From a virus: a stretch of 34,586 bases of DNA. Shown one piece after another: positions 13,530 through 32,250 of this stretch. The notes under the pieces are model-generated. The model saw only the letters and a list, made by a program, of their open reading frames with translations. It did not search any database and had not been told where the DNA came from. The DNA lies in the IMG/VR virus record IMGVR_UViG_3300027983_000051, positions 1-34,586 of that record; one strand, written 5' to 3'. Made by a program: the position numbers and the translations under genes. Position 1 is the first letter of the stretch; each line of letters begins with the position of its first letter.

Positions 13530-15357
13530 TAAAACTAGTTATCCAACTGCTAATACTTCTTACCTGTACGGTGCCTTCAACCCAGCCGCCAGCAGTTCTG
13601 ACATTTACTGTACCATCAACCCAAGATGAGCCGTTCCAAACTTTTACGTAACCTCCGGCTGCTTCAACTGACAGTGTCATAAACGCCGTATCAATAAAAT
13701 CTCCAGTACCATTTGTAGCACGTAATTTAAACGTGTATGTTCCCGGGGTGGCTACCGACCCAGTAATTGTACCGGTAGTGGAGTTAATAGTTAATCCCGT
13801 AGGGAGGGGCAGCCCAGGGGTTGACGTGTACGTCACTGATGCTGCACCCGCTGCGACTGAGACTTGGTCTGAAAAAGCTTCATCCTGAACTACGATACTG
13901 GACGCTAAAACTTGATCGGACCAGCTTAAAAAAGCATCCAATATTCCTATTGAGTAATTCTCGGTTGTTGCGGCCTCATTATAGGAGTTTCTTGGGGTTA
14001 GGCTAAAGGATACAGTGCCAAAATTATTAGGGGTACCTGATAACGTAGATGTGGCAAAGCCGTTTTCGTTAGTAAAAGAGTCAAAAGTTAGTCCGATACC
14101 TCCTAGATTTACAGCACTCCAGTTGTGAACAAAACTGGTGGAGACGGTGCTGCTGTAGAATTGACCAACTCGAGCACTATTAGTGAGGGATGTATCAGAC
14201 CAGACGGGCAACCGCGGTGAGACCGATATAGAAAAGTACCCGGTAGACCCTGACTCATTGGCAGAGTTTCTAGGTGTTGCATTAAAACTATAATTACCGG
14301 CAGCTGAGGGGGATCCTGAAAACGTGACGATCTCAGAACTTGTACCAGAAGTATTTATCCCGGGCGGCAGTGATCCTCCTATACTCCAGCTAGTGGCACC
14401 TGAGGCGGAAATGTTAGAACTGTAATTAGTTCCCACCCTTCCGGTGGTGGTTATAGAAGTGTCTGCCCAAACAGGGAGGGCGGCTAGAACTGTAACATTG
14501 TACTGATAAGTATCAGTAGATCCACCAGGGCCGTTTGCCCTAATTTGGATTGTATAGTCTCCGGTTGGGCCTTGAACAGCACCCCCAAGATAGGCTGTAC
14601 CGCTCACAACGTTAAGGGATTGTCCTGGTAGCCCCGATATTAGTTGATAGCTAGTAGTATCACTAGCAAAAATGCTGTCAGACCAATTCTCCCCAATTCT
14701 AGCTGGGTCACCAATGTTTATACCATTGCTAAAGACAGGAGCAGGTGTGTTAATGGTCCAGCTAGCAGTCGCAGTTACGTCACTGTTGACAGTATAGTTC
14801 TGGCCAGCAGAGTATGCTGACCCGCCTATAGTCCAGTAGTCAAAAGTGTAACCGGATCGTGAGGATGACGGCAGAGATATTGTAGTGCCTTCACTCACGG
14901 TTTGAGAACTTGGGGTACTGCCTCCATCTGCGTCAAACGAGATAGTTCTATTAACTACGGTAACAACCTGAGCTACACTTACAGTTGCAGTAGCTGAGCC
15001 CAGCAAGCTGTGACTCGCGGAAATAGAAACGGTAGTGCTGCCATTTGCGGAAGGTATGTACCTGCTGAATCCGCTATATATGGGAAAGCTTTGACCTGCA
15101 GCATAGCTGAAGGAGAAGGTTAGGTTGCTGTCCCCGCCCGACGGTACCAAGGTGCCACTAGTGCTGTTTGCCCTACCGTTGGGCACGGAATACGAGCGTG
15201 GGGACCCACTACTGCTTGGGCTATTGTTTACTGTTTGCCACTTTACTAGATCGGCAGAGATGTCAATTCTAGTTCCGCCAGACACCGCGTAAGACTCGGT
15301 GAAGAGCTCTATTCTGTATTGCGGGCGTGAGCTGAAGTTTGCATTTGTCTGAACCAC
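13522..15357 (-). CDS. Virion surface protein with InlB-type and Ig-like (He_PIG) repeats
   Basis: The GTG start has an AGGTGA ribosome site. The 611-residue protein begins with a beta-rich domain. Residues about 137-200 match a Listeria-Bacteroides (InlB B) repeat (FDADGGSTPSSQTVSEGTTI then SGYTFDYWTIGG). After that come at least four Ig-like repeats of the putative-Ig/He_PIG sort, marked by PVWSDTSL or PVWADTSI at the start and GNYSFNATPRNS or TYTFKLRATNGTG at the end. The C-terminus has short repeats (VKVWNGSSWVDGTV, GGWVEGTV) common at the ends of phage fibre proteins. Likely role is decorating the particle or binding the cell surface. It is the last gene of the structural group. Confidence 0.8.
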   Translation of the reverse strand: MVQTNANFSSRPQYRIELFTESYAVSGGTRIDISADLVKWQTVNNSPSSSGSPRSYSVPNGRANSTSGTLVPSGGDSNLTFSFSYAAGQSFPIYSGFSRYIPSANGSTTVSISASHSLLGSATATVSVAQVVTVVNRTISFDADGGSTPSSQTVSEGTTISLPSSSRSGYTFDYWTIGGSAYSAGQNYTVNSDVTATASWTINTPAPVFSNGINIGDPARIGENWSDSIFASDTTSYQLISGLPGQSLNVVSGTAYLGGAVQGPTGDYTIQIRANGPGGSTDTYQYNVTVLAALPVWADTSITTTGRVGTNYSSNISASGATSWSIGGSLPPGINTSGTSSEIVTFSGSPSAAGNYSFNATPRNSANESGSTGYFSISVSPRLPVWSDTSLTNSARVGQFYSSTVSTSFVHNWSAVNLGGIGLTFDSFTNENGFATSTLSGTPNNFGTVSFSLTPRNSYNEAATTENYSIGILDAFLSWSDQVLASSIVVQDEAFSDQVSVAAGAASVTYTSTPGLPLPTGLTINSTTGTITGSVATPGTYTFKLRATNGTGDFIDTAFMTLSVEAAGGYVKVWNGSSWVDGTVNVRTAGGWVEGTVQVRSISSWITSFTS

Positions 15358-15378: not shown

Positions 15379-18084
15379 TTAGAAGCTAATCCAGATGTCG
15401 CCCTCGCTGGGGCTCCCTGGCTCGGTTCCAATGTAGATAATTGGGAAGCTTGCTCCATATTTTGCGTAACCTCCGGAAAGTGACACTGTACTTCCGCTTA
15501 CTGCAACTGGTGCAACATTCCCAATAGTGACTGATGGTCCTGTCTCACCCGTAGCGCCAGTCGGACCAGTTACTCCCTGAACACCGGTCGGGCCAGTAGG
15601 GCCTAAGTCAGAAACTGCAATAGACCCAGCCATGCTGCTGTGATATTGGCAGACATAATAAAGATTATCGGGAGTATCAAATGGGACTTCCCAAATAATT
15701 GTTCCCACCGCAGCGCCTCCGCCAGTAACGCCGCCAGAGTAGACATTCCCAGAACTATATCCTCCAGACACTGTTTGAATCCAAAAAGGATGTCCAGAGG
15801 CATTTACGTTGAGAACGTACCTGTGCCCTCTAATAACAGAGAGAGTTGGGTTGCTTGCCCCATTTATATTGTATGCGCCAGACCCAGCGTTTGCGATTTC
15901 GTAAGTAATACCACCGCTTGGACCCGTTGATCCGGTAGGACCGGTTGGCCCTAAATCACCAGTTGATCCGGTTGGGCCTGTTACGAGACTGGCATCACCC
16001 GTTGATCCGGTAGGACCGGTTGGCCCTAAATCACCAGTTGATCCGGTTGGGCCTGTTACGAGACTGGCATCACCCTGAGCACCAGTAGGGCCAGTAGGGC
16101 CAGTAACGAAGCTATCAGCACCTGTCGGCCCTAAATCACCCTGAGAACCAGTCGGGCCAGTAGGGCCTGTTACAAAACTGTCAGCACCAGTTGGTCCAGT
16201 GACAAAGCTGTCAGCACCAGTTGGCCCAGTGGGACCAGTAACAAAGCTGTCAGCACCTGTGGGGCCAAGGGCACCAGTTGATCCGGTTGGACCAGTAGGA
16301 CCTAAATCTCCCTGACTCCCGGTAGGACCCGTCACTGTTGAAGCTAACCCGGTAACGCCTGTAGCACCAGTTGGCCCAGGTGCTCCAGTAGGTCCAGTCA
16401 CAAGTGACGCAGAGCCGGTTGAACCAGTAGCCCCTGTCGGCCCTAAATCACCCTGAGAACCAGTCGGGCCAGTAGGGCCTGTTACAAAACTGTCAGCACC
16501 AGTTGCACCTGTTGCACCAATTGGGCCAATAGGACCAACAATCTGACCTGCATCAGTCCAGGTATCTGCACCGTCTGAGACATAGAGATTGCCATCGGAG
16601 TCAACAATGTACGCATCGTTGCTAGCTGCCCCCGCAGGCAAGCTTGCGACATCTGCAACAGAGCCAACAAAGTGAATGTCAGTTCCTTGAGCTCCAGTTG
16701 GGCCCAGGGCTCCGGTCGGACCAGTAACAAAGCTGTCGGCTCCGGTTGGTCCAGTAGGCCCGGTTACAAAACTGTCAGCACCAGTTGGTCCAGTAACAAA
16801 GCTGTCAGCACCTGTGGGGCCAAGGGCACCAGTTGGACCAACAATAGTTGAGTCCTCGCCGGGTAGTCCCTGGACACCTTGAATGCCTTGAGGACCAGTG
16901 GCACCCTGCTCTCCAACTTCTCCTTGGATACCTTGAGGTCCTTCTACTGAGCTATCGGCTCCAGTCTCACCAATAGGTCCGTCTAAACCAATAGGACCCT
17001 GAGGACCGGTCACACCGGTTAATCCAGATAAACCTTGCGCTCCTGTTGGGCCCGTAGCTCCTTGGATACCAATAGGTCCGTCTAAACCAATAGGACCAGT
17101 TACTGACATACCAGATGAGCCCTGAGCCCCAGTAGCACCTATCGGCCCTTGGACACCTTGAGCCCCAGTAGGTCCTATCGGTCCAGTAATACTTAAACCT
17201 GAGATGCCAGTAGCGCCTGTAGGGCCACTAGAACCAGTCGGGCCAGCCGGTCCAGCTGCGCCGGCTTGGCCATTAGTCCCATTTTGACCGCTTGCACCAG
17301 TAGGGCCTGTGGCCCCGGTAGCACCAGTAGCGCCGGTAGATCCAGTACTACCAACTGATCCAGGGGTTCCGGCTGTACCAGTTGCACCAGTTGGACCCGT
17401 AATACTGAGCCCTTGGCCCCCCTGAGGTCCTGTTGCGCCTGTTGCGCCTGTTGCGCCTACTAAGCCTGTTGCTCCCGTGGGTCCTGCTATAGAAAGACCA
17501 GAGAGTCCCGTCGACCCTGTTGCGCCTGTTGCTCCTTGAGCTCCAGCTAATCCAGCGGTTCCAGTACCACCTGTTAGGCCTGTTGGGCCAGGAGCTCCAG
17601 TTGGTCCGGTAGCGCCTGTCAACCCAATTAAACCTGTTAGGCCTGTTGGGCCAGTAATGGATAGCCCCACAGAGCCTTGCAATCCAGTTGGGCCAGTGGC
17701 ACCTAGTTGCCCCTGAGGGCCCGCGGCCCCAGTTGGGCCTGTAATAGAGAGACCAGAAAGACCCGTAGATCCAGTTGCACCAGTTGCACCAGTCGGGCCA
17801 GTTGTGCCATTTACTCCGTTAATACCTGCTAAACCTGTTGGGCCAGTTGCACCAGTTGCACCAGTCGATCCTACAGAGCCAGTTGCTCCAGTAGGTCCAA
17901 CTGCCGTACTGTCTGCCCCAGTTGGGCCTGTCGCACCAGTAGCGCCAGTAGCGCCAGTTAGCCCCGCTGCTCCAGTAGGTCCCGTAGGGCCTCCAGCTGG
18001 TCCAGCCGCACCAGTTGGTCCAGCGGGTCCTTGCGGTCCAGGACCCTTTACATCTACATATGCAAAATTGTCTGAGAGTGTCAC
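15379..18084 (-). CDS. Collagen-like fibre protein with embedded cupredoxin-like domain
   Basis: A 901-residue protein dominated by Gly-x-Thr triplets ([21 protein letters not shown]) from about residue 14 to 720, with Pro mostly in the second position. Such repeats form collagen-like triple helices in phage fibres. Two folded inserts interrupt it: residues about 468-518 ([20 protein letters not shown]), a domain common in phage tail proteins, and residues about 725-825, which look like a cupredoxin with ligands H765, C812, H815 and M818. The final 45 residues ([20 protein letters not shown]) form a short tip. The GTG start overlaps the upstream TAG (TAGTG). No lysine occurs in the triplet runs I read, so proline is the obvious hydroxylation target. 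Confidence 0.9.
15923..16072 (-). repeat. Two perfect 75-bp tandem copies in the collagen-like gene
   Basis: Bases 15923-15997 and 15998-16072 are identical and encode 25 residues each ([20 protein letters not shown] plus five more). Imperfect versions of the same unit occur throughout 15900-16860, so length variation between related phages is expected. Confidence 0.9.
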
Positions 18085-18467
18085 TACTTGGTAACCTCTG
18101 CTCTCACGATAAATTTTCCTTGAATAATTCTAGTGGTATCTCCTGCGCTCTCAGACTCTACTTCTATGTCATAAACATAGCTATTTGGAGCAAATTGCGC
18201 CATCTCTGAAGGTGAAATTAACAATGTAACAGTCCCAGCTGGACCATTTACCGTAAGACTACCGCCCCCATCTTCAGTTGTGTACTCTGCGATTAGAAGA
18301 TCAGTTGTATTTCTAGTAGTTGGGTCTAAAGCTCTAATTTGCATTCTTGCAGTGTAACCCGTTAGGTCTAAAACCTTCCTCGCGGAGTTCTTTATAGTAA
18401 ATACTTGGTGCACCGTAGAGCCCTGGTCGGTTATTAGATTATAGACATTACCTCTAAGAGAACTCAT
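18084..18467 (-). CDS. Small beta-rich tail/baseplate-associated protein (BppU N-terminal-like)
   Basis: The 127-residue protein contains [27 protein letters not shown] and [20 protein letters not shown] in order. This is the pattern of the Ig-like domain found at the N-terminus of baseplate upper proteins and in many stand-alone actinophage and cyanophage tail genes. An AAGGA ribosome site stands 11 bases before the ATG. It is translationally coupled to the collagen-like fibre (TAGTG) and may attach the fibre to the particle. Fold assignment is reasonable; the exact structural position is inferred. Confidence 0.65.
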
Positions 18468-18525: not shown

Positions 18526-19257
18526 CTAAACTGAGTTAGTAGGCCCTTCGAGATCACCGCTATCCATTGGATGCTGACCATTATCTAGCTGCTCTTTCCA
18601 CTCTTCCTGCTGAACTTTCTGCTCAGCGCGGACTCCTGATATCTCTTCTTCCCACTCTGCCATGCGTTCTTCAGAGTATTCAGACTCTTTAAAATCCCAG
18701 AAAGCGCCAATAGTGTGCCGAGTGCCACCCTTAACGATGAAAACTTGATGAACATTATCAATACCGCCTGGAAAGGTTATTAGCTCTCCTACTTTAGGGG
18801 CAATAGTTAGATTGTGGTCCCTAAAGTCTAGTTCTCCACCTTCATAGTCATTGTTGATATATAGTAAACAGACTAACTTACTCTTCTCCCAGGCGGACCA
18901 ATTGCCATCCATATCAGTATTATCAGAATGGAACGGGGCAAAAGCACCTTCTTGCCACTTTTGAGCATGGCTAGATACAGGTTTAAGTGGGCGTTTGAAA
19001 GCGTGCTCGACAACAAGTTGAAGTCTGTCTGCAAGGTTTTTCATGTAATCCCTGGGTAGACCGTACTGCTCTAATAGAGGATCTTCAGGCAGTAGGCTCA
19101 TACCATAAGACTCGAAGAACGCCGACATTGTCCACGGTTGCGACGGATCGTTAAAGTACTCAACAACTTTCTTGCACTCTTCGTCTGACATGAAGTTCTG
19201 GTAATAGATAATGTCATCTTTGTATTGGCCTTGTTCGCCGAATTCAGTGTTGGTCAT
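18526..19257 (-). CDS. P4Hc-like Fe(II)/2-oxoglutarate dioxygenase (copy 1)
   Basis: A 243-residue double-stranded beta-helix enzyme with iron ligands H110-S-D112 (FAPFHSDNTD) and H170 (GIDNVHQV), and R180 (GTRHTI) to hold 2-oxoglutarate. The family signature LLYINNDYEGGELDF is clear. It has a longer acidic C-terminal tail (residues 190-243) than the other copies, and an iron-binding loop spaced by 14 extra residues (DMDGNWSAWEK). The ATG has a strong AGGAGAA ribosome site. It is the last gene in this array, so it closes the transcription unit before the fibre genes. It would hydroxylate a peptide or other phage/host substrate. Confidence 0.9.
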   Translation of the reverse strand: MTNTEFGEQGQYKDDIIYYQNFMSDEECKKVVEYFNDPSQPWTMSAFFESYGMSLLPEDPLLEQYGLPRDYMKNLADRLQLVVEHAFKRPLKPVSSHAQKWQEGAFAPFHSDNTDMDGNWSAWEKSKLVCLLYINNDYEGGELDFRDHNLTIAPKVGELITFPGGIDNVHQVFIVKGGTRHTIGAFWDFKESEYSEERMAEWEEEISGVRAEQKVQQEEWKEQLDNGQHPMDSGDLEGPTNSV

Positions 19258-19714
19258 TAGTTTCTCCTGTATATCCTGTGTCGGTTAGGAACCGGTCGGG
19301 GGCAAATCTCTGGTTATCTTTAGAGAATAGTTTAGCAAACTCATATACTAAGTAATTATACTCTTCTATAGGGACGTTTTCTTTGGCTATAAGGAAAATA
19401 TCTTTAGCCTTGTGATAGTCATCTCTAACAAAAGTGCACTCTCCACCTCTTGGACGGTAAAGTGTCCTACTGTGCACTCTTCCAGTTGGTTCGTACAATT
19501 CAACCGTCAAGTATTCTTTTGAAAAACCCCAGTCTTGATAGGCTTCATAACCTGAGGCTGCGGCTAGGGCATCTCCGTAAAAGTATATAGAGCGAGCGGG
19601 ACTCTCCCCGTCGCGCGCAATGGTGAGCATATATGAGTCTCCCTTACCCTCGGCTACCCTGAGTTTAAATTCCTCAACCACACTAACGTGGCTACTGTTC
19701 AAGCTATCTGACAT
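19244..19714 (-). CDS. Unknown 156-residue protein inside the oxygenase array
   Basis: No family recognised and no HxD motif, so it is not another oxygenase. It mixes beta strands (YMLTIARDGE, YLTVELYEPTGRVHS, RTLYRPRGGECTF) with a C-terminal helical part (YHKAKDIFLIAKENVPIEEY). It resembles small substrate-adaptor proteins in shape only. The ribosome site is AAGGG before ATG, and its end overlaps the oxygenase at 18526 by 14 bases, placing it in the same operon. Confidence 0.65.
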   Translation of the reverse strand: MSDSLNSSHVSVVEEFKLRVAEGKGDSYMLTIARDGESPARSIYFYGDALAAASGYEAYQDWGFSKEYLTVELYEPTGRVHSRTLYRPRGGECTFVRDDYHKAKDIFLIAKENVPIEEYNYLVYEFAKLFSKDNQRFAPDRFLTDTGYTGETNDQH

Positions 19715-19728
19715 TGCTACCCTTCGGG

Positions 19729-20559
19729 TTAAAGTAGACCTAATGATGTGTAAAAGTCATCGTTGAAGCCTTCGCCTCTTAATGTGACTCCAGTGAATTT
19801 TCTCTGTCCGAACTCATGACCTGACAATACTGCATGGTACATGCTAAAGAGATCTACAAATAGAAGATCTCCCTCTTGCCAGGTTTGTGTAATCCTAATG
19901 TCTGTATTATCATACAGATCGTAACATAGGTCTGTATAGAACTGGTCGAATTTAAGTTTATCATTTTTACTGGGGCTCTCACCCATGAAGTAGAAAAGTT
20001 CTGGCATCAAGATGCACCCTGGATCTACTTCTAATCTCAGTGTCTTTCTACCATTCACTGGGCTTATTTCCACTGCTCTAGTGTAGAATGGTCCTGCACC
20101 ATCTGGCTTGCTCTCTACACCCTTATCCCATTTCACTGTGCAGCCATCCAAGAACTCTTTAGTATCTTGCGGTAAACTGTAGTAATAGTTAGAAGAATTT
20201 ATAAACAAAGTCTGACCAACTCCCGGGGTTCCAGTGAAGTGGTGCATGTTCCAGACTCCAGCGTACATAGGGTGTACATAATAAGCTTTTTCAATATGCC
20301 AATGCAGTGAGTACTCATTGGTAGAGGTACTATACACCTTATTAGGGTCATCAGAATGGCCACCTTCGTAAGTTGCTCCTACTGCGTACGAGCAGTACTC
20401 TGCAAACTTAGAAGTAAGTTCAGCATGATCTGATGAACTAAAACTGTGCCCTCTTAGTATTAAGACACCTTCTGTAGTAAATAAGTTAAATATTTCTGGT
20501 ATCTCTGCTATTGCGCTTTCAAGAGAGACTACCGAAATCATTCTAGGCTGTGTGGTCAT
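19729..20559 (-). CDS. TauD/TfdA-like Fe(II)/2-oxoglutarate dioxygenase
   Basis: Unlike its neighbours this 276-residue protein has the TauD/clavaminate-synthase arrangement. It shows GVLILRGH at 31-38, iron ligands H88-I-E90 (LHWHIEKAYY, glutamate replacing the usual aspartate), distal H242 (MYHAVLSGHEF), and R253 eleven residues later in the position that binds 2-oxoglutarate in TauD. TauD-type enzymes hydroxylate small molecules such as taurine or amino acids, sometimes carrier- or peptide-bound. The natural substrate here is unknown. It overlaps the upstream oxygenase by 17 bases. Confidence 0.85.
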   Translation of the reverse strand: MTTQPRMISVVSLESAIAEIPEIFNLFTTEGVLILRGHSFSSSDHAELTSKFAEYCSYAVGATYEGGHSDDPNKVYSTSTNEYSLHWHIEKAYYVHPMYAGVWNMHHFTGTPGVGQTLFINSSNYYYSLPQDTKEFLDGCTVKWDKGVESKPDGAGPFYTRAVEISPVNGRKTLRLEVDPGCILMPELFYFMGESPSKNDKLKFDQFYTDLCYDLYDNTDIRITQTWQEGDLLFVDLFSMYHAVLSGHEFGQRKFTGVTLRGEGFNDDFYTSLGLL

Positions 20560-21415
20560 TTTTACTTACCTTTATTGGTAGAGTTCCATTTTCTAGATGG
20601 GTGTAGTATTCCGATAAGGTGTACATCTCCTTCATATATGGCCTCATGATCTTCAAGTCGTACCTGCTCGTGCGCTCGCGTTCCATATCTTGGAAGGCTT
20701 CTCCGTACTTATCATGCAAAGCGTGCCACTCTGGACTCCCCTCGTATGTGTAGTGCCAATACAATCGAACTATGTATTTTGGTGCATCCCAAATTCTGCG
20801 GACCCCATGATAGTAAGGATAAGTTGATGGAAAAAATACAAAGTCTCCCTTTACTGGCTTGTAGTCTATTGGCTCTTTCACTGTACCAGTGGCGGGATCT
20901 ACAATACTAAAAGAGATCTCTCCGTCCCTATAGTCATCATTTGGGTAGAGTACAGCAGTGACTGCAAATTTTTCCCCGGGCTGGTCGGCTCGTTCGGCCA
21001 TAAAATCAGTATGGTAATTCATAGTGAGGTCTTCCATATTACCAACATTCTCATCCGGAATGTACCTTGCAAGAGACCAGTTCTTGCAAGTCCAGTTAGG
21101 AAGCTCTATCCCAGTAGCTTCTAGATATGCGGAAGAAGCTTTGTAAAACTGATCTGCTATCTCTGCCCTGTATGGGTCATCAGTAGAGTCAATGATACTG
21201 GATCTCCACTCTTCCGGCGTGGGGAAGTGAGGATGACCCTGAAGAGTAGGACCCACACTGTCTACCTGTCTTCCGAATCCATACCAGCCGCCCCATGGGT
21301 GGCTCCTCTCATAATACTTTATTAGCCCTTCCGGATCCTTAAGAACATTATGGAATACAATGATATTTGGATCTAAGAATGTTACATCGTAACCTCCCAG
21401 TGTGGATCTTTTCAT
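20543..21415 (-). CDS. P4Hc-like Fe(II)/2-oxoglutarate dioxygenase (copy 2)
   Basis: I start it at ATG 21415 because GAGGAG stands 7 bases upstream; a TTG directly before it (21418) is less well placed. Iron ligands are H135-T-D137 (NYHTDFM) and H203 (YYHGVRR), with R217 or K213 for 2-oxoglutarate. The signature AVLYPNDDYRDGEISF is present, and VKGDFVFFPSTYPYYHG matches the usual KPKAG...FPS strand pair. The C-terminal 70 residues are extra compared with the shorter copies. It overlaps the stop of the upstream oxygenase by one base (TGATG). Confidence 0.9.
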   Translation of the reverse strand: MKRSTLGGYDVTFLDPNIIVFHNVLKDPEGLIKYYERSHPWGGWYGFGRQVDSVGPTLQGHPHFPTPEEWRSSIIDSTDDPYRAEIADQFYKASSAYLEATGIELPNWTCKNWSLARYIPDENVGNMEDLTMNYHTDFMAERADQPGEKFAVTAVLYPNDDYRDGEISFSIVDPATGTVKEPIDYKPVKGDFVFFPSTYPYYHGVRRIWDAPKYIVRLYWHYTYEGSPEWHALHDKYGEAFQDMERERTSRYDLKIMRPYMKEMYTLSEYYTHLENGTLPIKVSKNDHTA

Positions 21416-22089
21416 CAATTAACTCCTCTAAGGACTGATACTAAATGCCTAATTCGTTTAACCCGCTCTCCACCTTTCCAATGGTGTGTTATTAACATCT
21501 TTCTACCATTGGATATGTGACACGACTCATGCTTGTAGGGCATAAATGACGGAAACACTACTATACTACCAGCTTTTGGTTTAATCTTTATGTCCAGCTC
21601 TGGCTCTACAAAATGCAGCTCGCCCCCGTCGTAGTCGTCGTTGAGATACACTACGATTGTGTACTCCACATCAGAATTATCCTCGTTCCAGTCAATATGA
21701 GGCCCCATCGCGCGGTCCGGCAAATACTTATTGACACCTGTTGTTGCACCCGGATGTCTCATTGACTGCACGGCATATCTAAGTGACACCTCGTCTATGT
21801 CAAATACAGAAGCATACACTTTGGCACAGTCCCCCATAGAAGTCGCAAGGGTATCCATTAGCCACGTGGATTTAGCTAACGCTTCAGGGTCTGGCTCGGA
21901 CTTTAAAAAGTGTCGTCTTAAGTACTTAACTTCTCCATAGCTAAAACCAGACTTGTCTCCCGTGTCCCACTTCTCCCACCCAGAAACGGCTGAGCAATCT
22001 AATTCCTCAATTAGATCTATTACCTCCCTAAGGTCATCAAACACATCTTCAAAGTACATAATTTGGCTTTTGATAATTTGATATTTCAT
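21415..22089 (-). CDS. P4Hc-like Fe(II)/2-oxoglutarate dioxygenase (copy 3)
   Basis: The 224-residue protein shows H131-I-D133 (MGPHIDWNED), H187 (PYKHESCH) and R196 (NGRKMLI), with YLNDDYDGGELHF and IKPKAGSIVVFPS. The N-terminal helical half (DLREVIDLIEELDCSAVSGW) is shared with copies 4-6, marking a subgroup that arose by duplication. The same segment WxxWD...YGEVK occurs in copy 4. A second ATG after ten residues (MYFEDVFDD) could also be used. Confidence 0.9.
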   Translation of the reverse strand: MKYQIIKSQIMYFEDVFDDLREVIDLIEELDCSAVSGWEKWDTGDKSGFSYGEVKYLRRHFLKSEPDPEALAKSTWLMDTLATSMGDCAKVYASVFDIDEVSLRYAVQSMRHPGATTGVNKYLPDRAMGPHIDWNEDNSDVEYTIVVYLNDDYDGGELHFVEPELDIKIKPKAGSIVVFPSFMPYKHESCHISNGRKMLITHHWKGGERVKRIRHLVSVLRGVN

Positions 22090-22100
22090 GCTGAGCCTCT

Positions 22101-22745
22101 CTAAAACTTAATTATTGGAGTAGAAGTGGTATGCACGTGAGTGATGATAGTTTTTCTACCATTTGCTGTCATCTTAGACTCATGCAAGTATCCAGATGGG
22201 AAGACCACAATCCCGCCAGCTTTGGGTTTTATGATGACTGCAACGCCTTCCTGAGAAATCCCTAATTCGCCCCCCTCATAAGAGTCGTCTAAGTACACGG
22301 AGATAGTGTAGGTATCTCGACCGTCTACCACTCTATCCGAGTGAGGACCCATGTCTTCATTTTCGTTGTATCGCCTAATACCATAAAAGTTATTGTCTTC
22401 AAACATTGTTTTTCTTATTAAAGAGACCTCAAAATCAGTGGCGCCATGAGCACGCATAAATACTTCGCAAGTGTCATGCATACGATCTAGGAGGGTGTTA
22501 ATCACATATGATGCCTTGGCTCGCACTTCTGGGTTAAATTCTTGATCTAATAGCTGTAGGTTTAGGGTTTTAACCTCCCCGTAAGGGTACCCTTCTAAGG
22601 TATTATCCGCGTACCAAGTCTCCCATGGGGTAACTGCGACGCTGTTTAATTCTTCTAAGGCCGCCATTAGCTCTACTATTTCAGGTATAGCACCTGGAAA
22701 ATAGTAGACATTCTCATGTAGTACTTCATAGTCTAAAGCGGCCAT
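22101..22745 (-). CDS. P4Hc-like Fe(II)/2-oxoglutarate dioxygenase (copy 4)
   Basis: I chose ATG 22745 over GTG 22760 because the resulting N-terminus (MAALDYEVLHENVYYF) aligns with copy 6 (MYLEEKLHENVYLY); the ribosome site is weak in either case. Numbered from that ATG: H135-S-D137 (MGPHSDRV), H188 (YLHESKM) and R197 (NGRKTII). YLDDSYEGGELGI and IKPKAGGIVVFPSG complete the fold. It is closest by eye to copy 3. It overlaps the end of copy 5 by about 13 bases. Confidence 0.88.
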   Translation of the reverse strand: MAALDYEVLHENVYYFPGAIPEIVELMAALEELNSVAVTPWETWYADNTLEGYPYGEVKTLNLQLLDQEFNPEVRAKASYVINTLLDRMHDTCEVFMRAHGATDFEVSLIRKTMFEDNNFYGIRRYNENEDMGPHSDRVVDGRDTYTISVYLDDSYEGGELGISQEGVAVIIKPKAGGIVVFPSGYLHESKMTANGRKTIITHVHTTSTPIIKF

Positions 22746-23407
22746 GAGTCTTCGGGCCACAAAGGTAATTGCTCACTTATAAACTTTCTGGAGACTACTT
22801 GGACTTCATTTGTGAAGTACTTGATGCCTTCTGTTAAGTGACTTGATCCGTGAATTGCTCTCGACGGAAATACGACTAAGCTGCCACCCTGAGGTTTGAT
22901 AGACACGTCTATGTCGGTCCAATAGATCTCTCCACCAGTGTACTCATCGTTTAGGTACAAGGTGGTAGTTATCCCGACTGGATCTTGTCCGTCAATATCT
23001 GGATGAACTCCGTGATGGCCTCCCGCTAAGTACTTTTTAATTGCAAAATTAGGTGACCTATTTTTCCAGTAGAACTGGTTAAATTTTTCTAGGTTCTCAT
23101 CGGTCATTCCTAGGTTTTTTAAGTAGATACTATAGCCAGTTATGATTGCAGTGTCTAGGGTGTTAATAATTTCCGCTACAACCTCTCTATGATTGGCAGT
23201 CTCCTCATTAAGTTTTCCGCGCTCTACGCTTTTCATAATGCCGTACTGGTAGGGGTTAACCTTATCATGAGCGTCCCATGGCCCCCACTCGCCTATAGCA
23301 GGCGTGCTTGTATCCTCTATATATTTAAGAAGTTCCTTGATATTAGGTATAATGGAAGGGAAGTATAGTATTTTTCCGTCGTAGTAACTCTCATAAAATG
23401 CGGTCAT
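22733..23407 (-). CDS. P4Hc-like Fe(II)/2-oxoglutarate dioxygenase (copy 5)
   Basis: Iron ligands H135-P-D137 (GVHPDIDGQD) and H186 (RAIHGSSH); the 2-oxoglutarate anchor is K196 (EGIKYFTN) rather than arginine, as in animal prolyl 4-hydroxylases. YLNDEYTGGEIYW and IKPQGGSLVVFPS are intact. A 25-residue tail with WPEDSWPL follows the fold. The ATG overlaps the stop of copy 6 by four bases (ATGA), indicating tight translational coupling. Confidence 0.9.
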   Translation of the reverse strand: MTAFYESYYDGKILYFPSIIPNIKELLKYIEDTSTPAIGEWGPWDAHDKVNPYQYGIMKSVERGKLNEETANHREVVAEIINTLDTAIITGYSIYLKNLGMTDENLEKFNQFYWKNRSPNFAIKKYLAGGHHGVHPDIDGQDPVGITTTLYLNDEYTGGEIYWTDIDVSIKPQGGSLVVFPSRAIHGSSHLTEGIKYFTNEVQVVSRKFISEQLPLWPEDSWPL

Positions 23408-24192
23408 TCTTGGTCATCATCTAGGTATTTTATCTCTGCGTTTACATCTCTGTAGCCAGACCCTGCGTTGTACTTCTCCCTGGACTCAGGGCTGCTGGAG
23501 TCAAACTCTCGTTGAAAGATGAATCCGGGGAACATATACTTATCACCATTCTTCATAAGATGTACCTGGTGCTTATAGGGATGAGTTGATGGGAAAATTA
23601 GTGCCTGACCGGCCTTGGGCTTAATGGTGAAATCAACTAAGTCCTTATTGGCCGGATCGGTTGCCTCTTTCTTAGGCTGCAGGTGGCCGTTCTTGGGGTT
23701 CCTAAGATCATAAGGTCTAATAATAAATGACAACTCACCACCATCGTAATCATCATTAACATATACTATTATCGACCATTTTAAGCTTTCGTCGCCCGCT
23801 TGTGCATCAAAATGAGCACCCATGTCGCACCCTGGACGATATTTCATCATTCCGGCAAAGGGTGATACATTTGGCTCTCCCTCTTCCTCGTGATCTGCGT
23901 AGAATGCAGCGGAGATTTTTTCGATTGCGCCCCTAATCTGACCCACAACCCACTCTACGTCAGCCTTGCGGTCAGACTCCAGTCCTTCCAGAGCATCTAG
24001 CGCAAAATCCTTCTTACTGCCAAAACTGTGACCGTCTTGAGTGTTAGAAAACCAAAAACCCCACTCTGGGATTACAGCCTGAACACTCTCATCTTCGTCA
24101 AGCTCCTCGATGAGGCGAATTAACCTCGCCGGATCGTCTAAGACATCAGAATAAAGGTAAACGTTCTCATGAAGCTTCTCTTCTAAATACAT
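23404..24192 (-). CDS. P4Hc-like Fe(II)/2-oxoglutarate dioxygenase (copy 6)
   Basis: Starting at ATG 24192 (AGGAAA ribosome site, beyond the stop of copy 7) gives 262 residues and avoids a 47-base overlap implied by the farther start at 24246. Ligands are H127-F-D129 (MGAHFDAQAGD), H208 (PYKHQVHL) and K218 (NGDKYMFPG). Between the strand YVNDDYDGGELSF and IKPKAGQALIFPS it carries an insert of about 35 residues (RPYDLRNPKNGHLQPKKEAT) not found in most copies, which would sit near the substrate opening. Confidence 0.9.
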   Translation of the reverse strand: MYLEEKLHENVYLYSDVLDDPARLIRLIEELDEDESVQAVIPEWGFWFSNTQDGHSFGSKKDFALDALEGLESDRKADVEWVVGQIRGAIEKISAAFYADHEEEGEPNVSPFAGMMKYRPGCDMGAHFDAQAGDESLKWSIIVYVNDDYDGGELSFIIRPYDLRNPKNGHLQPKKEATDPANKDLVDFTIKPKAGQALIFPSTHPYKHQVHLMKNGDKYMFPGFIFQREFDSSSPESREKYNAGSGYRDVNAEIKYLDDDQE

Positions 24193-24199
24193 TATTTTC

Positions 24200-24976
24200 C
24201 TAACTAAATTGCCACATTGGCGGTTGATCTTGTATAGCGTTGGCATTTATCATCCACCGCTTAACTCCTTCTCCGATTGGTGACACCGAATGCTCGTAGG
24301 GGAATGCGCATGGGAATATCACTATGTCCCCCGCTTTTGGTTTATGGGAGCCTTCTGTAAAGTCTGATTCGGTGTATGTACCATCTAATTGTTTGTGGTA
24401 TACACGAACAGTAATCTCTCCACCTTCCCCATAATCATCATTTAAATACAGATTATACGCAAATGTTTGATTTGCAATATCCTTCTCTTCTCTCGGATCT
24501 TGATTACCCCACGCGCCCTTAGGATGAAGATGCAGGTGACCAGAATAATCAGAGTGAGGCCCAACGCCTTGCGGTCCCTGGTAGTACCTAAACTCCAAGG
24601 GGGCATGCTGAATAATGTTAATGTCTAAGGACCATCGTGCAACGTAGTCAGAAACTACACCTTCGAGCAAACTTAGTACTCTAAGTATGGATTGGTATGC
24701 AGTGTCATCATCCTTTGGATTGGGATAGTAAGCTTTAAAGTCTTTGAAAACTGGACCGCCTAAAATTCCATAGTCTAGACCCTCGGGGATTCGATATCTC
24801 TCAAGCAGCGGCCTGCGCCGTAATCCATCTTGATCCTCCCACTCGTTTGGCGCCTCAAGGATATACCCATCCCCGAAGGGTGCAGTATAAAATGAAGAGA
24901 GCAACTCCTCGCAATGATCCCTCGTGAGTGCTCCTTCATATACTGTGACATACTTTAGCGGGTCAGAGCTTATCAA
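24200..24976 (-). CDS. P4Hc-like Fe(II)/2-oxoglutarate dioxygenase (copy 7)
   Basis: I start it at TTG 24976: GAGGAGA lies 5-6 bases upstream, and TTGA overlaps the stop of copy 8. The alternative start 25024 would overlap copy 8 by 52 bases. Ligands are H141-S-D143 (VGPHSDYSGH), H229 (PYEHSVSP) and K239/R240. YLNDDYGEGGEITV and KPKAGDIVIFPCA are present. The loop after HxD is long and histidine-rich (SGHLHLHPKGAWGNQDP), unlike the other copies, so its substrate pocket is probably different. Confidence 0.88.
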   Translation of the reverse strand: MISSDPLKYVTVYEGALTRDHCEELLSSFYTAPFGDGYILEAPNEWEDQDGLRRRPLLERYRIPEGLDYGILGGPVFKDFKAYYPNPKDDDTAYQSILRVLSLLEGVVSDYVARWSLDINIIQHAPLEFRYYQGPQGVGPHSDYSGHLHLHPKGAWGNQDPREEKDIANQTFAYNLYLNDDYGEGGEITVRVYHKQLDGTYTESDFTEGSHKPKAGDIVIFPCAFPYEHSVSPIGEGVKRWMINANAIQDQPPMWQFS

Positions 24977-25656
24977 GATGTCTCCTCTTTTTTGTGACCC
25001 CTGATTGCCCAAAAGAAGGGACATACGTACCTAATCCCAGACTTAACCTCAGTCACACCGTGTATGTAGTGCATATCCCCTGGGAAGAAATAAGCGGCAC
25101 CCGCTTTTGGTTTAAATTGAACCCCCTGATTTGGGAAATATAGCTCCCCACCCTCGTAGTCATCGTTAATATAAAATAATCCGGCTATGTCATAATACGG
25201 AAAGTCATTTGGTTTCCCGCGGTTTTCGCCTTCATGCAACTCTTTATCGGCGTGAGGCTGCTGACGTTGCCCTGGGAGCCAGCGTACTATAGCTGGGCTT
25301 GTAGGGTGAGCATCAACTTTAAAAAAAGAATCTACCTGCTCTTTGAGTCTAGCTTGCATACCTATAATTACTTCATTTATTTTAGGATCCAAAGCATCTA
25401 ATGTCGGAGCAGTGGCAACCCTGTGATCCCAGTAGCTCGAGTCATAGATTACTACGCCATCGTCATTGTAATGGGTCTCTGTTTTATCCCAAGTCTGGTT
25501 ATTTACTGCAAACTTAGTCAGGTACTCTAACTCTTTGGGAGTCATAAAATTTTCAATAGCTACAATATTATCTATCGAGTCCCCAAAGAAACCAGAAGGT
25601 GTTGACGACTCATAAGGGTGATCGTTGTTATTTGTTACGTTATCTGTCATGGCCAT
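24973..25656 (-). CDS. P4Hc-like Fe(II)/2-oxoglutarate dioxygenase (copy 8)
   Basis: 227 residues with H135-A-D137 (QQPHADKEL), H199 (MHYIHGVTEV) and R209 (SGIRYVCPF). YINDDYEGGELYF and FKPKAGAAYFFPGD are intact. A second ATG lies two codons in, so the exact start is open. This copy closely follows the pattern of stand-alone P4Hc proteins of cyanophages (PHADKELHEG, then DIAGLFYINDDYEGG), a reminder that such enzymes travel widely between aquatic phages. Confidence 0.9.
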   Translation of the reverse strand: MAMTDNVTNNNDHPYESSTPSGFFGDSIDNIVAIENFMTPKELEYLTKFAVNNQTWDKTETHYNDDGVVIYDSSYWDHRVATAPTLDALDPKINEVIIGMQARLKEQVDSFFKVDAHPTSPAIVRWLPGQRQQPHADKELHEGENRGKPNDFPYYDIAGLFYINDDYEGGELYFPNQGVQFKPKAGAAYFFPGDMHYIHGVTEVKSGIRYVCPFFWAIRGHKKEETS

Positions 25657-25670
25657 AGTACTATCCTACA

Positions 25671-26417
25671 CTATTCATATTTACGTCTTTCCCAAACTTG
25701 TTTTTGGTATATTCCGCCGTCTGGTCGTCTATATTTGGCACTATTTTCTTGATTTTTCTCCATCATTGTTGGCATGTCTACAGTAGCGTCTACTTCAGAA
25801 GTCCAATCTTCGCGCTTAAAGGGGAGCATTTGTGCGTAAGGTGTACCAGCTGGTATAACTCCAGTAAATCCTTTAATAATAAAGAATGGCATGGTACCCG
25901 GAAGATGTACGTGATCATTATCGATAATCCCGCTTGTGGTCAAGAATGGTAACTCAAAACGGTTAAAAGGTTGAGTGTATAGTACGCTGTAGCCCTCTGG
26001 CACCTCTACCGCCCAATCGGCCCACCAGGCAAAGTGAGTCTCATGATACCCCATCGGGGCCTTAAACTGAGCCATTGGTGGCCTAAATCCCACAAAATCT
26101 CTATTTCTTGCATCTAGAACTTTGCACTGGATACTACCTGCCGAGTCCTCAAAGAATTCGATATCGCAGGGGGTTCTATACACATAACCCGTTCCCATAA
26201 TGTCATAAATTGCTGGGCATGCCTTCCACGTAGGTATCTTCCCGCTGCCGTCTGGCATCTCCCACGGTTTCCCAGTCATAGGGTTTTGGGCAAAGCGATC
26301 GGCACTCTTATACCACTCTGGGATGGTCTTTATTGTGGCTTTTGGGGAAGAGTCGCTGTCATTCGTGAGCCAAGGCCTATTTCTGACAAACTTAATTAAC
26401 TGAGATATCTTAGCCAT
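25671..26417 (-). CDS. Unknown protein, paralogue of the DUF6065-like gene at 26410
   Basis: 248 residues with no HxD motif. Conserved-looking stretches are TIPEWYKSADRF near the N-terminus, GYVYRTPCDIEF, GFRPPMAQFKAPMGYHETHF, and PFNRFELPFLTTSGIIDND followed by IPAGTPYAQMLPFKREDW. The last block aligns with IPANTPIAAVLP of the next gene and the lengths match (248 and 247), so the two are diverged copies of one beta-rich family. Similar proteins occur in aquatic phages, but I know of no function. It overlaps the neighbour by 8 bases and sits within the oxygenase operon. Confidence 0.7.
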   Translation of the reverse strand: MAKISQLIKFVRNRPWLTNDSDSSPKATIKTIPEWYKSADRFAQNPMTGKPWEMPDGSGKIPTWKACPAIYDIMGTGYVYRTPCDIEFFEDSAGSIQCKVLDARNRDFVGFRPPMAQFKAPMGYHETHFAWWADWAVEVPEGYSVLYTQPFNRFELPFLTTSGIIDNDHVHLPGTMPFFIIKGFTGVIPAGTPYAQMLPFKREDWTSEVDATVDMPTMMEKNQENSAKYRRPDGGIYQKQVWERRKYE

Positions 26418-27153
26418 CAGTGTTCTCGACTTCGTGAGAAGCCCCAGTAAATGGGCAGGTAACTGTTTTTAGCTTTATAGACTTAGTTTCGTGCGCTCCT
26501 ACGGACTCTCCTGTGTAGCTCAGGGCGTCTCTATACATTTTTGACCAGTCGCCTACTCCATTTTTTATCTCTGCAAAATCTCCATACTTTCTGACTTCGT
26601 CCCAGTAATCTTCAGTTGCATAGCCATCTTGGATCTGCATCTCGTAGTCAGTCTCTAACAATTTTAAAGACACTGGTAGTACTGCTGCAATTGGAGTATT
26701 CGCTGGGATAAATATTTCGTGATTCGGCTCAGTCAGCCTCCAAGCTAGAGGTAGTTCATGGAAATAGAATGAAGTACTTATCAGTGTGGTATAGCACTGG
26801 GCCCCCCGGGTAAAAAGATTTGGCACAGGCATAGTCAACATTGAGGTCTCAGCGTCAGTGCCAAACTTTAAGGCAGAGTGAAAGCTAAGGGTAGCATTAC
26901 CTCTAGTATTGCTAGCAAACTCTGCACCTTCAAGTATTGTGACGTGGTCTGGCGTGGTGTCAGTTATACCATCCCATATAACTCTTATATCTCCCGGGAA
27001 AGAAATACCCCAGCCCAGCCTATTAGTAAGGTTCAAGGGAAAGCACATATACGCATGCTTCTCTGCTGTATCGTCCATCCATTCTCGCTTGGCGGATAGC
27101 TGCTCAATATCAGCTCCGTTTGGTTTAGTTTTAGATACAGTAACTATTCTCAC
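26410..27153 (-). CDS. DUF6065-like protein of unknown function
   Basis: The segment CFPLNLTNRLGWGISFPGDI followed by RVIWDGI matches the DUF6065 pattern (PL-x-x-x-N-x-x-GW...P...WDG) as I remember it. It continues with MPVPNLFTRGAQCYTTLIST and IFIPANTPIAAVLPVSL, all beta-rich. The C-terminal 40 residues hold a Cys in TVTCPFTGASHEV. The GTG start overlaps the upstream stop (TAGTG), so it is made with the oxygenase at 27153. The family has no established activity; a structural or substrate-binding role beside the hydroxylases is inference. Confidence 0.65.
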   Translation of the reverse strand: MRIVTVSKTKPNGADIEQLSAKREWMDDTAEKHAYMCFPLNLTNRLGWGISFPGDIRVIWDGITDTTPDHVTILEGAEFASNTRGNATLSFHSALKFGTDAETSMLTMPVPNLFTRGAQCYTTLISTSFYFHELPLAWRLTEPNHEIFIPANTPIAAVLPVSLKLLETDYEMQIQDGYATEDYWDEVRKYGDFAEIKNGVGDWSKMYRDALSYTGESVGAHETKSIKLKTVTCPFTGASHEVENTDG

Positions 27154-27935
27154 TAAGACCCAGTCTCCTCAAAGAAAACTGGTTGATGAAACTTATCCGA
27201 GAAGTCGAGCATAGTCACCATAGAGTACTTAGTGCCTGATGTCACTGGCATTGCCCGATGTGGGTACATAAAATTGGAGGGGAAAATGTAAAGATCTCCC
27301 GCTTTGGGTTTAATCTTAACGTCTTGTAATCTAAAATATAGCTCCCCGCCTTCGTAATCATCTGTAGGGAATGCAACTAATGATACTACGCAGTTATAAG
27401 AGTACCCGTGATCATGGTGCTCCTGAAAATGCTGCCCCTTGTGGTATCTAATATAATTTGTAGCCTCCCAGTAACGAAGTTCTCCAATATTGTACCGTCT
27501 AGTGTAGTCTTTTACTACCTGAAGCTGCCTATGCACGACGTCGTCTGCGAGACTCTTTAGGATCTCTGCCCCAACTGAGTCATCTTCTAGGATATCAGAT
27601 TTTTTGTATTTAAAGTCGACGCAATCGCGGTACTCTGGCATTTTCATTGCGTAACCCACCATTGCGTCTCTATACGAGTACCGGTTATCTGGGTCATCTA
27701 TTGCAGTCTCTAATCTACCTATTATGTCCAGCTCTTTAGGGAGCACATCTCTATAGACCCAAATTCCGGACCCTGGAGATACTTCTTGAGCGCTGCTCCA
27801 GGTCTGCTCTCCAATCGTATACCAGTCTTTTAGGCGCTGCTCAAGCAGAGCTTGCTCTTGCTTGCCTTTATCAGACAGATCTTGCTCTACTAGTTCCTGA
27901 TCTTCTGCCCTTTGACTGCTCTGCTCTTGCGACAT
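27153..27935 (-). CDS. P4Hc-like Fe(II)/2-oxoglutarate dioxygenase (copy 9)
   Basis: 260 residues with H173-H-D175 (QEHHDHGYSY), H226 (MYPHRAMP) and K236 (SGTKYSMV). FPTDDYEGGELYF and IKPKAGDLYIFPS are present. The first 45 residues are Gln/Glu-rich and helical (SQEQSSQRAEDQELVEQ), an N-terminal extension absent from other copies that could mediate oligomerisation. It is closest to copy 10 in motif spacing (YxxHADHG/HHDHG, then SGTKYS). Confidence 0.9.
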   Translation of the reverse strand: MSQEQSSQRAEDQELVEQDLSDKGKQEQALLEQRLKDWYTIGEQTWSSAQEVSPGSGIWVYRDVLPKELDIIGRLETAIDDPDNRYSYRDAMVGYAMKMPEYRDCVDFKYKKSDILEDDSVGAEILKSLADDVVHRQLQVVKDYTRRYNIGELRYWEATNYIRYHKGQHFQEHHDHGYSYNCVVSLVAFPTDDYEGGELYFRLQDVKIKPKAGDLYIFPSNFMYPHRAMPVTSGTKYSMVTMLDFSDKFHQPVFFEETGS

Positions 27936-27942
27936 GGGTTCC

Positions 27943-28686
27943 TTAATATTTTAATTCGTAATTTTCGATTACTTGTGAAACTTTTTGATTGACACCATCA
28001 CGATCATTATAGTCAGTCATAATCACAACTGAGTACTTGGTCCCGCTGATCATCTCCTGTGAAGCGTGCTCATAGATAAAAGTTGATGGAAAGACTACAA
28101 TATTACCTTGTTTAGGTTTTAACTCTAGCCCAAATCTGGGGAAAGCCAGCTCTCCGCCTTCATAGTTATGATTTAAATATATAACTGCGGATACTGTGGC
28201 AACATATGTAGGCCCATGGTCGGCGTGGATCCTGAAATGAGTGCCCGCTCCTTCGTACTTTACAAAATTGAAGGCCTCATACTTTTGAATACCTACTCCC
28301 CAATACCGCCCGTAGTCTTCCATGCATAGTCTTAAGGCTTGGAAAATTTCTTCGTGCATATCGTAAAGTGCAGAATTCTCGTCTCCACGGGGACCGTGAG
28401 AATTCTTAGCTATCTTAAAATCTTGTGCGTTTCTCGCCTCTAGGTCGGCCTCAGAGGTAGCAGTTACTTGAGCGCGATTCCAAGTGAACTGTGTTTGACC
28501 ATTTAAATTTGCTTCTAATGTGTCTATATACCTATCGCAATTAATTTCAGACAGTGCATTGCTGTATACGTTTATACCCAATGCTGGGTTACTCACTGAA
28601 ATTGGTCCTAGAGCTCTAATTTCTTCCCTACTAGAGTCAGTCTCTGACCTATCTTTTGTGTACCAAGGATTTTTGTAAATAGTCAT
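27943..28686 (-). CDS. P4Hc-like Fe(II)/2-oxoglutarate dioxygenase (copy 10)
   Basis: 247 residues with H154-A-D156 (FRIHADHGPT), H207 (IYEHASQE) and K217 (SGTKYSVV). YLNHNYEGGELAF and LKPKQGNIVVFPS complete the fold. It is the first gene transcribed in the array, immediately after the terminator at 28705-28742. There is no Shine-Dalgarno sequence before its ATG, but a TAGTAT lies seven bases upstream, the spacing expected for a leaderless message. Confidence 0.9.
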   Translation of the reverse strand: MTIYKNPWYTKDRSETDSSREEIRALGPISVSNPALGINVYSNALSEINCDRYIDTLEANLNGQTQFTWNRAQVTATSEADLEARNAQDFKIAKNSHGPRGDENSALYDMHEEIFQALRLCMEDYGRYWGVGIQKYEAFNFVKYEGAGTHFRIHADHGPTYVATVSAVIYLNHNYEGGELAFPRFGLELKPKQGNIVVFPSTFIYEHASQEMISGTKYSVVIMTDYNDRDGVNQKVSQVIENYELKY

Positions 28687-28754: not shown

Positions 28755-29558
28755 TTAAATATACGTTGGACCGAAGCTAGGTGGGAAGAACGGTGGGAAG
28801 AACGGTGGGAAGAACGGTGGGAAGAACGGTGGGAAGAACGGTGGGAAGAACGGGAAGCTAGGTGGGAAGAACGGTGGGAAGAATGGTGGGAAGAACGGTG
28901 GGAAGAATGGTGGGAAGAACGGTGGGAGTGTGTCAATCTCGTTAGAGTATGCAGAGAAAACAGATATGCCATTGGCGTTTGTGGCATATACACGATACTT
29001 GTTTAAGAGTGTGCCTTCACCCTCTTGTGTAACTGTAAAGGAGTTGGTTGCAGTAGTACCTGTTTTAGCGGTGCCACCTTCAATCTCTACTGACTCCCAG
29101 TTGTACCCGGAGATAGCATTACCGCCATCTGATGGAATAGTAAAAGTAACATTGTCTTGATTCGCTGTTGTTGATGTAGCGGTAACGGATCCAGGGGCAG
29201 CCGGAACGGTAGTAACAGTAACTGAAGGGGCAGCTGTTGCATCCGACGTACCAGAAGGGTTAGTCAGAGAAACAGAAATTGTATAGGAGGTACTAGACAA
29301 TAGGCTTTCAATTATAACCGTATAGACTTCCCCCGAAGGTGTTGGTAGCGTACCAGATGAGAGGGTAGAACCACCTGCAACAATAGTGTAAGAAACCGGC
29401 GTTGGCGATAGAGGATCTACCTCCCAAGTTACGGTAACTGCACCATCGTTATACGCACGTGAAGTACCAACGTTAGTTGCTGTAACATTTAGCGGTGCTA
29501 GGGGCTCTAGAAAGTCATTCTGTGCAGAAGACTTTCCACCCGATTCTTTTTTTGCCAT
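28755..29558 (-). CDS. Fibronectin-III protein with (FFPP)n C-terminal tail
   Basis: Residues about 20-118 and 119-210 are two fibronectin type III domains (NVTATNVGTSRAYNDGAVTV, TSYTISVSLTNPSGTSDAT; then GSVTATSTTANQDNVTF and YRVYATNANGISVFSAYSN). From residue 212 to 261 the protein is built of FFPP units with one SFP interruption, ending SFGPTYI. FN3 domains are common decorations of phage particles. The Phe-Pro tail is very unusual and would form an extended, hydrophobic, proline-rich rod; it is an obvious candidate substrate for the proline-hydroxylase-like enzymes transcribed next. The ribosome site is weak. The long open frames in other phases here are by-products of the 12-base repeat. 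Confidence 0.82.
   Translation of the reverse strand: MAKKESGGKSSAQNDFLEPLAPLNVTATNVGTSRAYNDGAVTVTWEVDPLSPTPVSYTIVAGGSTLSSGTLPTPSGEVYTVIIESLLSSTSYTISVSLTNPSGTSDATAAPSVTVTTVPAAPGSVTATSTTANQDNVTFTIPSDGGNAISGYNWESVEIEGGTAKTGTTATNSFTVTQEGEGTLLNKYRVYATNANGISVFSAYSNEIDTLPPFFPPFFPPFFPPFFPPFFPPSFPFFPPFFPPFFPPFFPPFFPPFFPPSFGPTYI
28780..28926 (-). repeat. 12-bp minisatellite coding for (FFPP)n
   Basis: Six tandem 12-base units (28780-28851), a 9-base interruption GGGAAGCTA, then five more (28861-28920) and a half unit. Units are identical except a C/T change at the last base in two of them. The interruption repeats the sequence just before the first unit (GAAGCTA), so the array seems to have doubled as a block. 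Confidence 0.95.
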
Positions 29559-32003: not shown

Positions 32004-32019
32004 TTTTAGTCCCTAGTCC

Positions 32020-32250
32020 TTAGAAAGAAGATGGTCCGCCACCGTCGTAGTTAATATTATAGACGCTAGTGGCATCGCCGCCATCAACGTTTGTTACATC
32101 AGATGCTATCATTGAGACCCATGCGATGCCGTCGTAGGCATACATGGACCCAACGTCGGAGCGGAAGAAGAGGTCACCCTGATCTGCATCTGCAGGAAAT
32201 GATGCTCCTTGCACAATGTTGATCGGGGTTAGGAATTTCTTGCTAGCCAT
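32020..32250 (-). CDS. Small tail-associated protein
   Basis: A 76-residue protein with AGAGG ribosome site. The N-terminus (KKFLTPINIVQG) resembles that of the fibre at 32294 (KQFLTGLNLNQN), and the middle (YAYDGIAWVSM) resembles its RYYDGSVWQLL. The C-terminus (VDGGDATSVYNINYDGGGPS) is a short motif found at the end of many phage tail proteins. It is probably a fibre tip or a stand-alone attachment module. Exact role unknown. Confidence 0.7.
   Translation of the reverse strand: MASKKFLTPINIVQGASFPADADQGDLFFRSDVGSMYAYDGIAWVSMIASDVTNVDGGDATSVYNINYDGGGPSSF

Follow-up and report, generated by a model that had tools for sequence, protein, structure and literature searches.

Tandem 2-oxoglutarate oxygenase genes behind a PP[FY]F-repeat tail gene: a candidate tail-protein hydroxylation cassette in phages

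The IMG/VR virus record IMGVR_UViG_3300027983_000051 is a linear record of 34,586 bp, and its whole length is referred to here as the window. Between positions 18526 and 28686 it carries an array of eleven Fe(II)/2-oxoglutarate (2OG) oxygenase genes, all on the minus strand. The genes are consecutive apart from three embedded non-oxygenase genes, with neighbours spaced by -52 to +14 nt, in agreement with the single-strand, mostly overlapping layout described in the initial annotation, which was made from the sequence alone. Directly upstream of the array lies the gene of an fn3 tail-type protein that ends in (PPFF)n. Together, these genes form what we call the cassette:

28755-29558, minus strand: fn3 tail-type protein of 267 residues with C-terminal (PPFF)n; first gene of the cassette and candidate substrate (PF00041 at the cut-off; weak match to phrog_6977, minor tail protein)
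28773-28925, minus strand: PP[FS]F repeat within the fn3 tail-type gene, residues 212-262, 12 units, 49% proline
27943-28686, minus strand: P10, PF13640 oxygenase, core copy (46.7 bits; orthologue in all loci compared)
27153-27935, minus strand: P9, PF13640 oxygenase, core copy (52.7 bits)
26410-27153, minus strand: D, DUF6065 (PF19541) protein, core, 93.6 bits; predicted dUTPase-like fold (AlphaFold2 pLDDT 83.7; Foldseek)
25671-26417, minus strand: H, phrog_7084 protein by PHROG match, core; predicted weak dUTPase-like fold (AlphaFold2 pLDDT 92.6; Foldseek)
24973-25656, minus strand: P8, PF13640 oxygenase, core copy (35.1 bits)
24200-25024, minus strand: P7, PF13640 oxygenase, variable, with a long post-HxD loop (40.5 bits)
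23404-24246, minus strand: P6, PF13640 oxygenase, variable, with an insert (41 bits)
22733-23407, minus strand: P5, PF13640 oxygenase, variable (33 bits)
22101-22760, minus strand: P4, PF13640 oxygenase, variable (41.2 bits)
21415-22089, minus strand: P3, PF13640 oxygenase, variable (52 bits)
20543-21418, minus strand: P2, PF13640 oxygenase, variable (31.8 bits)
19729-20559, minus strand: TauD-family PF02668 oxygenase, present in only part of the relatives (56.2 bits)
19244-19714, minus strand: U, of no known family, adjoining P1 in some relatives (no Pfam or PHROG match)
18526-19257, minus strand: P1, PF13640 oxygenase, last copy of the array (33.5 bits)

Ten open reading frames (ORFs) in the array matched PF13640 (2OG-FeII_Oxy_3) at 31.8 to 52.7 bits, above the Pfam gathering cut-off of 27, and these calls were checked by a six-frame search over the entire record. 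The TauD ORF also passed its curated cut-off. The ten prolyl 4-hydroxylase (P4H)-type genes and one TauD-like gene of the initial annotation were thereby recovered; it had staked its claim on at least half of the genes belonging to 2OG-Fe(II) families, and all eleven (11/11) were placed there. In the alignment, the HxD motif, the distal His and the Lys/Arg anchor are retained in 10/10 PF13640 copies, and the insert of P6 and the post-HxD loop of P7, both noted earlier, are visible. The copies share 17-23% identity with the first row of the alignment; they are old paralogues. Decay of the array was considered and rejected: copies in the related genomes are intact, as are the catalytic residues in 965/967 motif-spanning PF13640 domains of the related loci. 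The dN/dS ratio is 0.05-0.25 where measurable, few pairs being computable owing to saturated dS. A promoter and terminator scan gave promoters at chance level. The solved structures nearest to the array profile are all peptide hydroxylases: PKHD hydroxylases, P3H1, bacterial P4H and LH3. Array oxygenases also match phrog_274, phrog_2297 and phrog_3531, labelled DNA endonuclease (V) or ferrochelatase, and a 2OG gene is named 'ferrochelatase' in NC_023587 and NC_070962; these labels are probable annotation errors.

Three IMG/VR scans, using Prim-Pol, P10 and the phrog_7084 protein, returned at least 203 related loci. All figures from IMG/VR scans given here apply among the matches listed, and IMG/VR records are often fragments. 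The number of PF13640 genes per record reaches 15 in the two 154-kb records G006 and G012; among 49 arrays with a visible far end, array size ranges from 4 to 11 consecutive copies, which puts the window (10) near the top, and related uncultured phages thus reach the same size. Cyanophage S-SCSM1, which is cultured, was reported with 24 2OG-Fe(II) ORFs (PMC9602691). The earlier claim that eleven such genes are extraordinary is thus not supported for the number in itself. Gene order in the relatives shows P10-P9-D-H-P8 as a fixed core, with a variable set behind it; the TauD and U genes each occur in only some relatives. In the phylogenetic tree, P8, P9 and P10 form tight orthologous groups over all eleven loci compared, and the window copies cluster with orthologues of other phages, not with their array neighbours. 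The remaining copies evolve faster or have expanded in particular phages, as seen for the P1/P2 relatives in L139 and L145. This grouping, the low identity and the conserved catalytic residues uphold the earlier view of a diversified set rather than gene dosage.

A near-identity DNA search of the window in phages gave no match, and we found no cultured phage with the cassette. In the literature searched, from which the majority of subscription journals and preprints were missing, we found no description of a long run of consecutive copies that share a conserved core. It is already known that one phage can carry many 2OG oxygenases; what appears to be new is a conserved tandem cassette that comes with a candidate substrate. 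The phage is of a freshwater type, and a WhiB-family gene and Prim-Pol relatives in actinophages point to an actinobacterial host. In record G006 (154,192 bp), both termini fall within PPYF repeats of the same strand. This suggests that the genome, of ∼154 kb, is circular or circularly permuted and was broken at the repeat, in which case the window would represent about one quarter of its own genome.

The repeat of the fn3 tail-type gene was also detected at the DNA level, as a tandem repeat of period 12 with 12.6 copies at 28780-28927. In the relatives, the same position is occupied by PPFF/PPYF repeats of up to ∼20 units. The cassette is thus built of an fn3-(PP[FY]F)n gene and a same-direction core of P10, P9, P8, D and H, all of which are present in the window; between P8 and the tail-fibre assembly gene, the window holds seven intact variable PF13640 genes and the TauD gene. 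For an oxygenase-independent test, IMG/VR was scanned for DNA coding PP[FY]F three times running. Near-duplicates were removed, and for loci with enough flank, we asked for a same-strand oxygenase gene of this group no more than 2.5 kb downstream. Such a gene follows the PP[FY]F repeat in 38/49 deduplicated loci, compared with 6/49 for collagen GPT repeats (Fisher 5.5e-11) and 2/57 for PT repeats (Fisher 1.8e-16). On the upstream side, the counts are 1/36, 0/70 and 0/66, respectively. PF13640 still occurs somewhere in the record in 22 of 30 repeat records in which a downstream cassette gene is absent or distant; for collagen records, the corresponding count is 5/42.

Several cassette orders were observed behind the repeat gene (P10 P9 D H P8; P10 H P9 D P8; P9 D H P8; P8 x P9 D). 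Among the Prim-Pol-found records, the repeat is present in 13/17 with PF13640 and 0/13 without it; for records of at least 50 kb, the numbers are 9/9 and 0/9. A scan of 84,980 bacterial and archaeal genomes (GTDB) gave only 11 occurrences of the repeat DNA. Four of the 11 stretches read as true repeat genes and lie on phage-like contigs, the others being unrelated or in the wrong frame; array-type oxygenases stand beside three of these four genes and a weak D/H-type gene beside the fourth. In addition, a second PP[FY]F region or gene of a different protein family lies away from the array in G030 (63153-63212), G006 (136407-136526), L220, L218 and L237; it could be a further substrate acted on in trans.

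Cyanophages were included for comparison. The same search found 5-13 PF13640 genes per genome. PP[FY]F repeats were absent from all the records tested, seven from isolates and one a metagenome-assembled genome. T4-like cyanophages (phrog_61) share PF13640 with the window and carry several diverged copies per genome, often beside tail-fibre genes; however, their oxygenases are mostly dispersed, different from the consecutive array of the window. In S-SCSM1, the 2OG ORFs form runs of three or four in the genome stretch examined, not eleven. The nearest solved structures by sequence, namely the collagen hydroxylases P3H1 and LH3 and bacterial P4H (B. anthracis type, 5hv0/3itq), share the catalytic residues; they are single copies acting on Gly-X-Y, whereas the window has tandem sets with a proposed PP[FY]F substrate. 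Chlorella virus PBCV-1 is a eukaryotic algal virus. Its virus-encoded P4H with peptide substrates provides an experimental precedent, as cited in PMC9301287 (Eriksson 1999), although its arrangement is unlike a phage cassette with the candidate substrate encoded next door.

On balance, we favour the view that the array is an enlarged local form of an aquatic-phage tail-maturation cassette, which hydroxylates the PP[FY]F tail protein and perhaps neighbouring fibres too. The cassette genes would be expressed together, late in infection, and the core oxygenases would hydroxylate the PP[FY]F repeat, consuming O2 and 2-oxoglutarate. PP motifs are typical targets of prolyl hydroxylases, and the nearest solved structures are prolyl/lysyl hydroxylases and PKHD enzymes; for both reasons, proline is the first candidate for hydroxylation, and aromatic residues are also possible. 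The resulting extended tail segment would be hydroxylated and differ in stiffness, adhesion, protection or sites available for later modification. The variable copies may modify different positions or nearby fibre proteins, and, as a guess, D and H may assist assembly of the tail protein. Our certainty in these inferred steps falls from the role in the tail module, through the repeat as substrate of the core enzymes, proline as the residue and the variable copies acting elsewhere, to the physical effect. The dedicated phage hydroxylation system proposed in the initial annotation thus stands in qualified form, as a lineage-wide cassette of the tail-fibre module tied to a PP[FY]F tail protein that the annotation had overlooked.

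Several observations weigh against this proposal. The putative substrate is assigned from gene neighbourhood, and ten enzymes for one simple repeat are hard to account for. The repeat loci are not independent, since 42 clustered PP-repeat termini belong to one homologous fn3 family, with an oxygenase after 33/34 eligible members. Among three apparently unrelated PP families (clusters 3, 6 and 12), 5/6 eligible members have an oxygenase nearby; one further PP-repeat family has none (0/4). Array size correlates with repeat number in the raw data (Spearman 0.44-0.52), but the correlation is gone after phylogenetic contrasts (r 0.17, p 0.25). We therefore do not count it as evidence; the Y content of the repeat also shows no relation to array size. 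Because cyanophages carry PF13640 without PP[FY]F, the enzyme family must have other uses. In the Prim-Pol tree, the long records lacking repeat and oxygenases form mainly one clade, which reduces the genome-level co-absence to one or two events. Several short negative records (L009, L014, L024 and L041) are closely related to positive ones and may be incomplete pieces in which the array is missing.

Collagen is the textbook substrate of such enzymes, and two genes downstream of the array, the window encodes a collagen-like tail fibre:

15379-18084, minus strand: collagen-like tail fibre, 901 residues, rival substrate (PF01391, 209 bits)
18084-18467, minus strand: tail-fibre-assembly-like protein, downstream of the array (phrog_1084, phrog_3304)

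The array might therefore hydroxylate this fibre, as the collagen prolyl/lysyl hydroxylases of animals do; the downstream oxygenases at 6/49 collagen loci, none being upstream (0/70), and a PiuC-type gene near a collagen-repeat gene in ACG-2014f agree with this. However, among the 177 triplets of the fibre, proline occupies the Y position, the target of collagen P4H, in only 5 and the X position in 56, and co-occurrence of Y-position-proline collagen with the enzymes was not found. Complete phage DSL-LC01 (129 kb, Actinomycetia) is the best natural control against collagen as the reason for the enzymes. Its backbone is colinear with the window (AAA24 gene 80%, glycosyltransferase gene 61%), and it belongs to the clade of long negative records. 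It has five collagen-like genes, yet no PF13640, D, H or PP[FY]F. Array size is unrelated to the number of collagen genes (Spearman 0.06), PF13640 occurs in only 5/42 collagen records, and the linkage counts favour the PP[FY]F repeat. We thus disfavour collagen as the main substrate and regard this explanation as distinctly unlikely. It is also unlikely that each oxygenase has a separate target, in most cases a different tail or fibre protein or a molecule of the host surface, with the PPFF protein being one of many targets or none. The strong divergence of the copies, their differing loops and inserts, the turnover of variable copies between phages in which fibre genes vary too, and the cyanophage 2OG genes that flank tail-fibre genes without PP repeats all speak for such separate targets; the consistent placement of P10, P9, P8, D and H behind the PP[FY]F gene is left unexplained.

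The tail gene and the oxygenases could also travel together, by descent or recombination, without being substrate and enzymes. That a single homologous tail-gene family supplies most of the linkage, and that the genome-level test comes down to one or two events, fits such neutral co-inheritance. We nevertheless assign it a small probability: the cassette keeps its partners although their order varies, oxygenases also follow several PP genes that are apparently non-homologous, and the catalytic residues are almost always retained (965/967). The literature usually treats phage 2OG genes as auxiliary metabolic genes, proposed in cyanophages to reprogram the metabolism of the host or its sensing of oxygen and 2-oxoglutarate (PMC9602691). 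The TauD family does act on small molecules. Since the array sits between structural genes in the tail-fibre module, is tied to one tail gene and contains no metabolic genes, this seems very improbable for the window. Modification of DNA, RNA or glycans by Tet/JBP-like or sugar oxygenases has a probability close to nil. One copy gave a sub-threshold Tet_JBP match and glycosyltransferase-type genes occur elsewhere in the window; however, that match, the best of all copies, reached 18.8 bits against a cut-off of 34.9, no DNA methyltransferase was seen among the window genes scanned, and the nearest solved structures are peptide hydroxylases. DNA hypermodification was therefore rejected.

The two accessory core proteins, D and H, look like repurposed dUTPase-fold proteins, as far as the predicted models go, because their fold matches dUTPases and their sequence family does not. 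With Foldseek, the top matches of both models have the dUTPase/dCTP deaminase fold (E 2e-4 to 1e-3; best about 2e-4 and 4e-4), with a weak dUTPase TM-score for H; in Pfam, D matches DUF6065 only and H nothing. The structural overlap is low, and enzyme activity is not implied by the shared fold. D weakly matches the PHROG of H, so they could be distantly related paralogues. Nothing in 50,697 phage records matches DUF6065, and no paper naming this family was found in the literature searched. Matches to phrog_7084 in phages are confined to haloviruses and one other record. The homologue in HSTV-2 (gp40, L571) lies by thymidylate synthase, which gives no functional clue, and no oxygenase is annotated near the homologues of haloarchaeal tailed viruses; the H-type protein is thus also used outside the cassette.

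Upstream of the cassette, the window continues with further tail genes:

29586-34501, minus strand: two tail-fibre-like genes (29586-32003 and 32294-34501) with a small gene between them (Mtd_N PF18454, several PHROG tail families)

Outside the array, glycosyltransferase-type genes lie at 6647-7708 (GT2 match) and 9418-10287 (weak Anp1 match). A third such gene, at 4099-5109, has no Pfam match but resembles one adjoining a glycosyltransferase gene in DSL-LC01. Hydroxylated residues are common glycosylation sites, and a link between the array and the glycosyltransferase-type genes is possible. Residues ∼738-826 of the collagen-like fibre allow a cupredoxin-like reading (HPFWIQ...), with a sub-threshold Pfam match (At5g54830) and a match to phrog_677. 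In DSL-LC01 (L574), a gene annotated as tryptophan halogenase (12221-13792) stands beside the collagen-like tail genes; it is possibly another tail-protein modifying enzyme.

Taken in its broader form, the proposal is that a dedicated tandem cassette of prolyl-hydroxylase paralogues and two dUTPase-fold helpers serves aquatic phages, most of them actinobacterial, to make a PP[FY]F tail segment that is rich in hydroxyproline or hydroxylated in another way, and that this is a virion-protein hydroxylation system not described before; we put this forward only tentatively. With a conserved cassette and one repeat-bearing tail protein, both the enzymes and the peptide for a test are defined, and attention shifts from the metabolism of the host to the chemistry of the virion. 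If the proposal is true, it would give a function to one group of the abundant phage P4H genes, PP[FY]F-specific hydroxylases would be a usable enzyme set, and the hydroxylation of tail segments would add a new kind of modification to those of phage virions.

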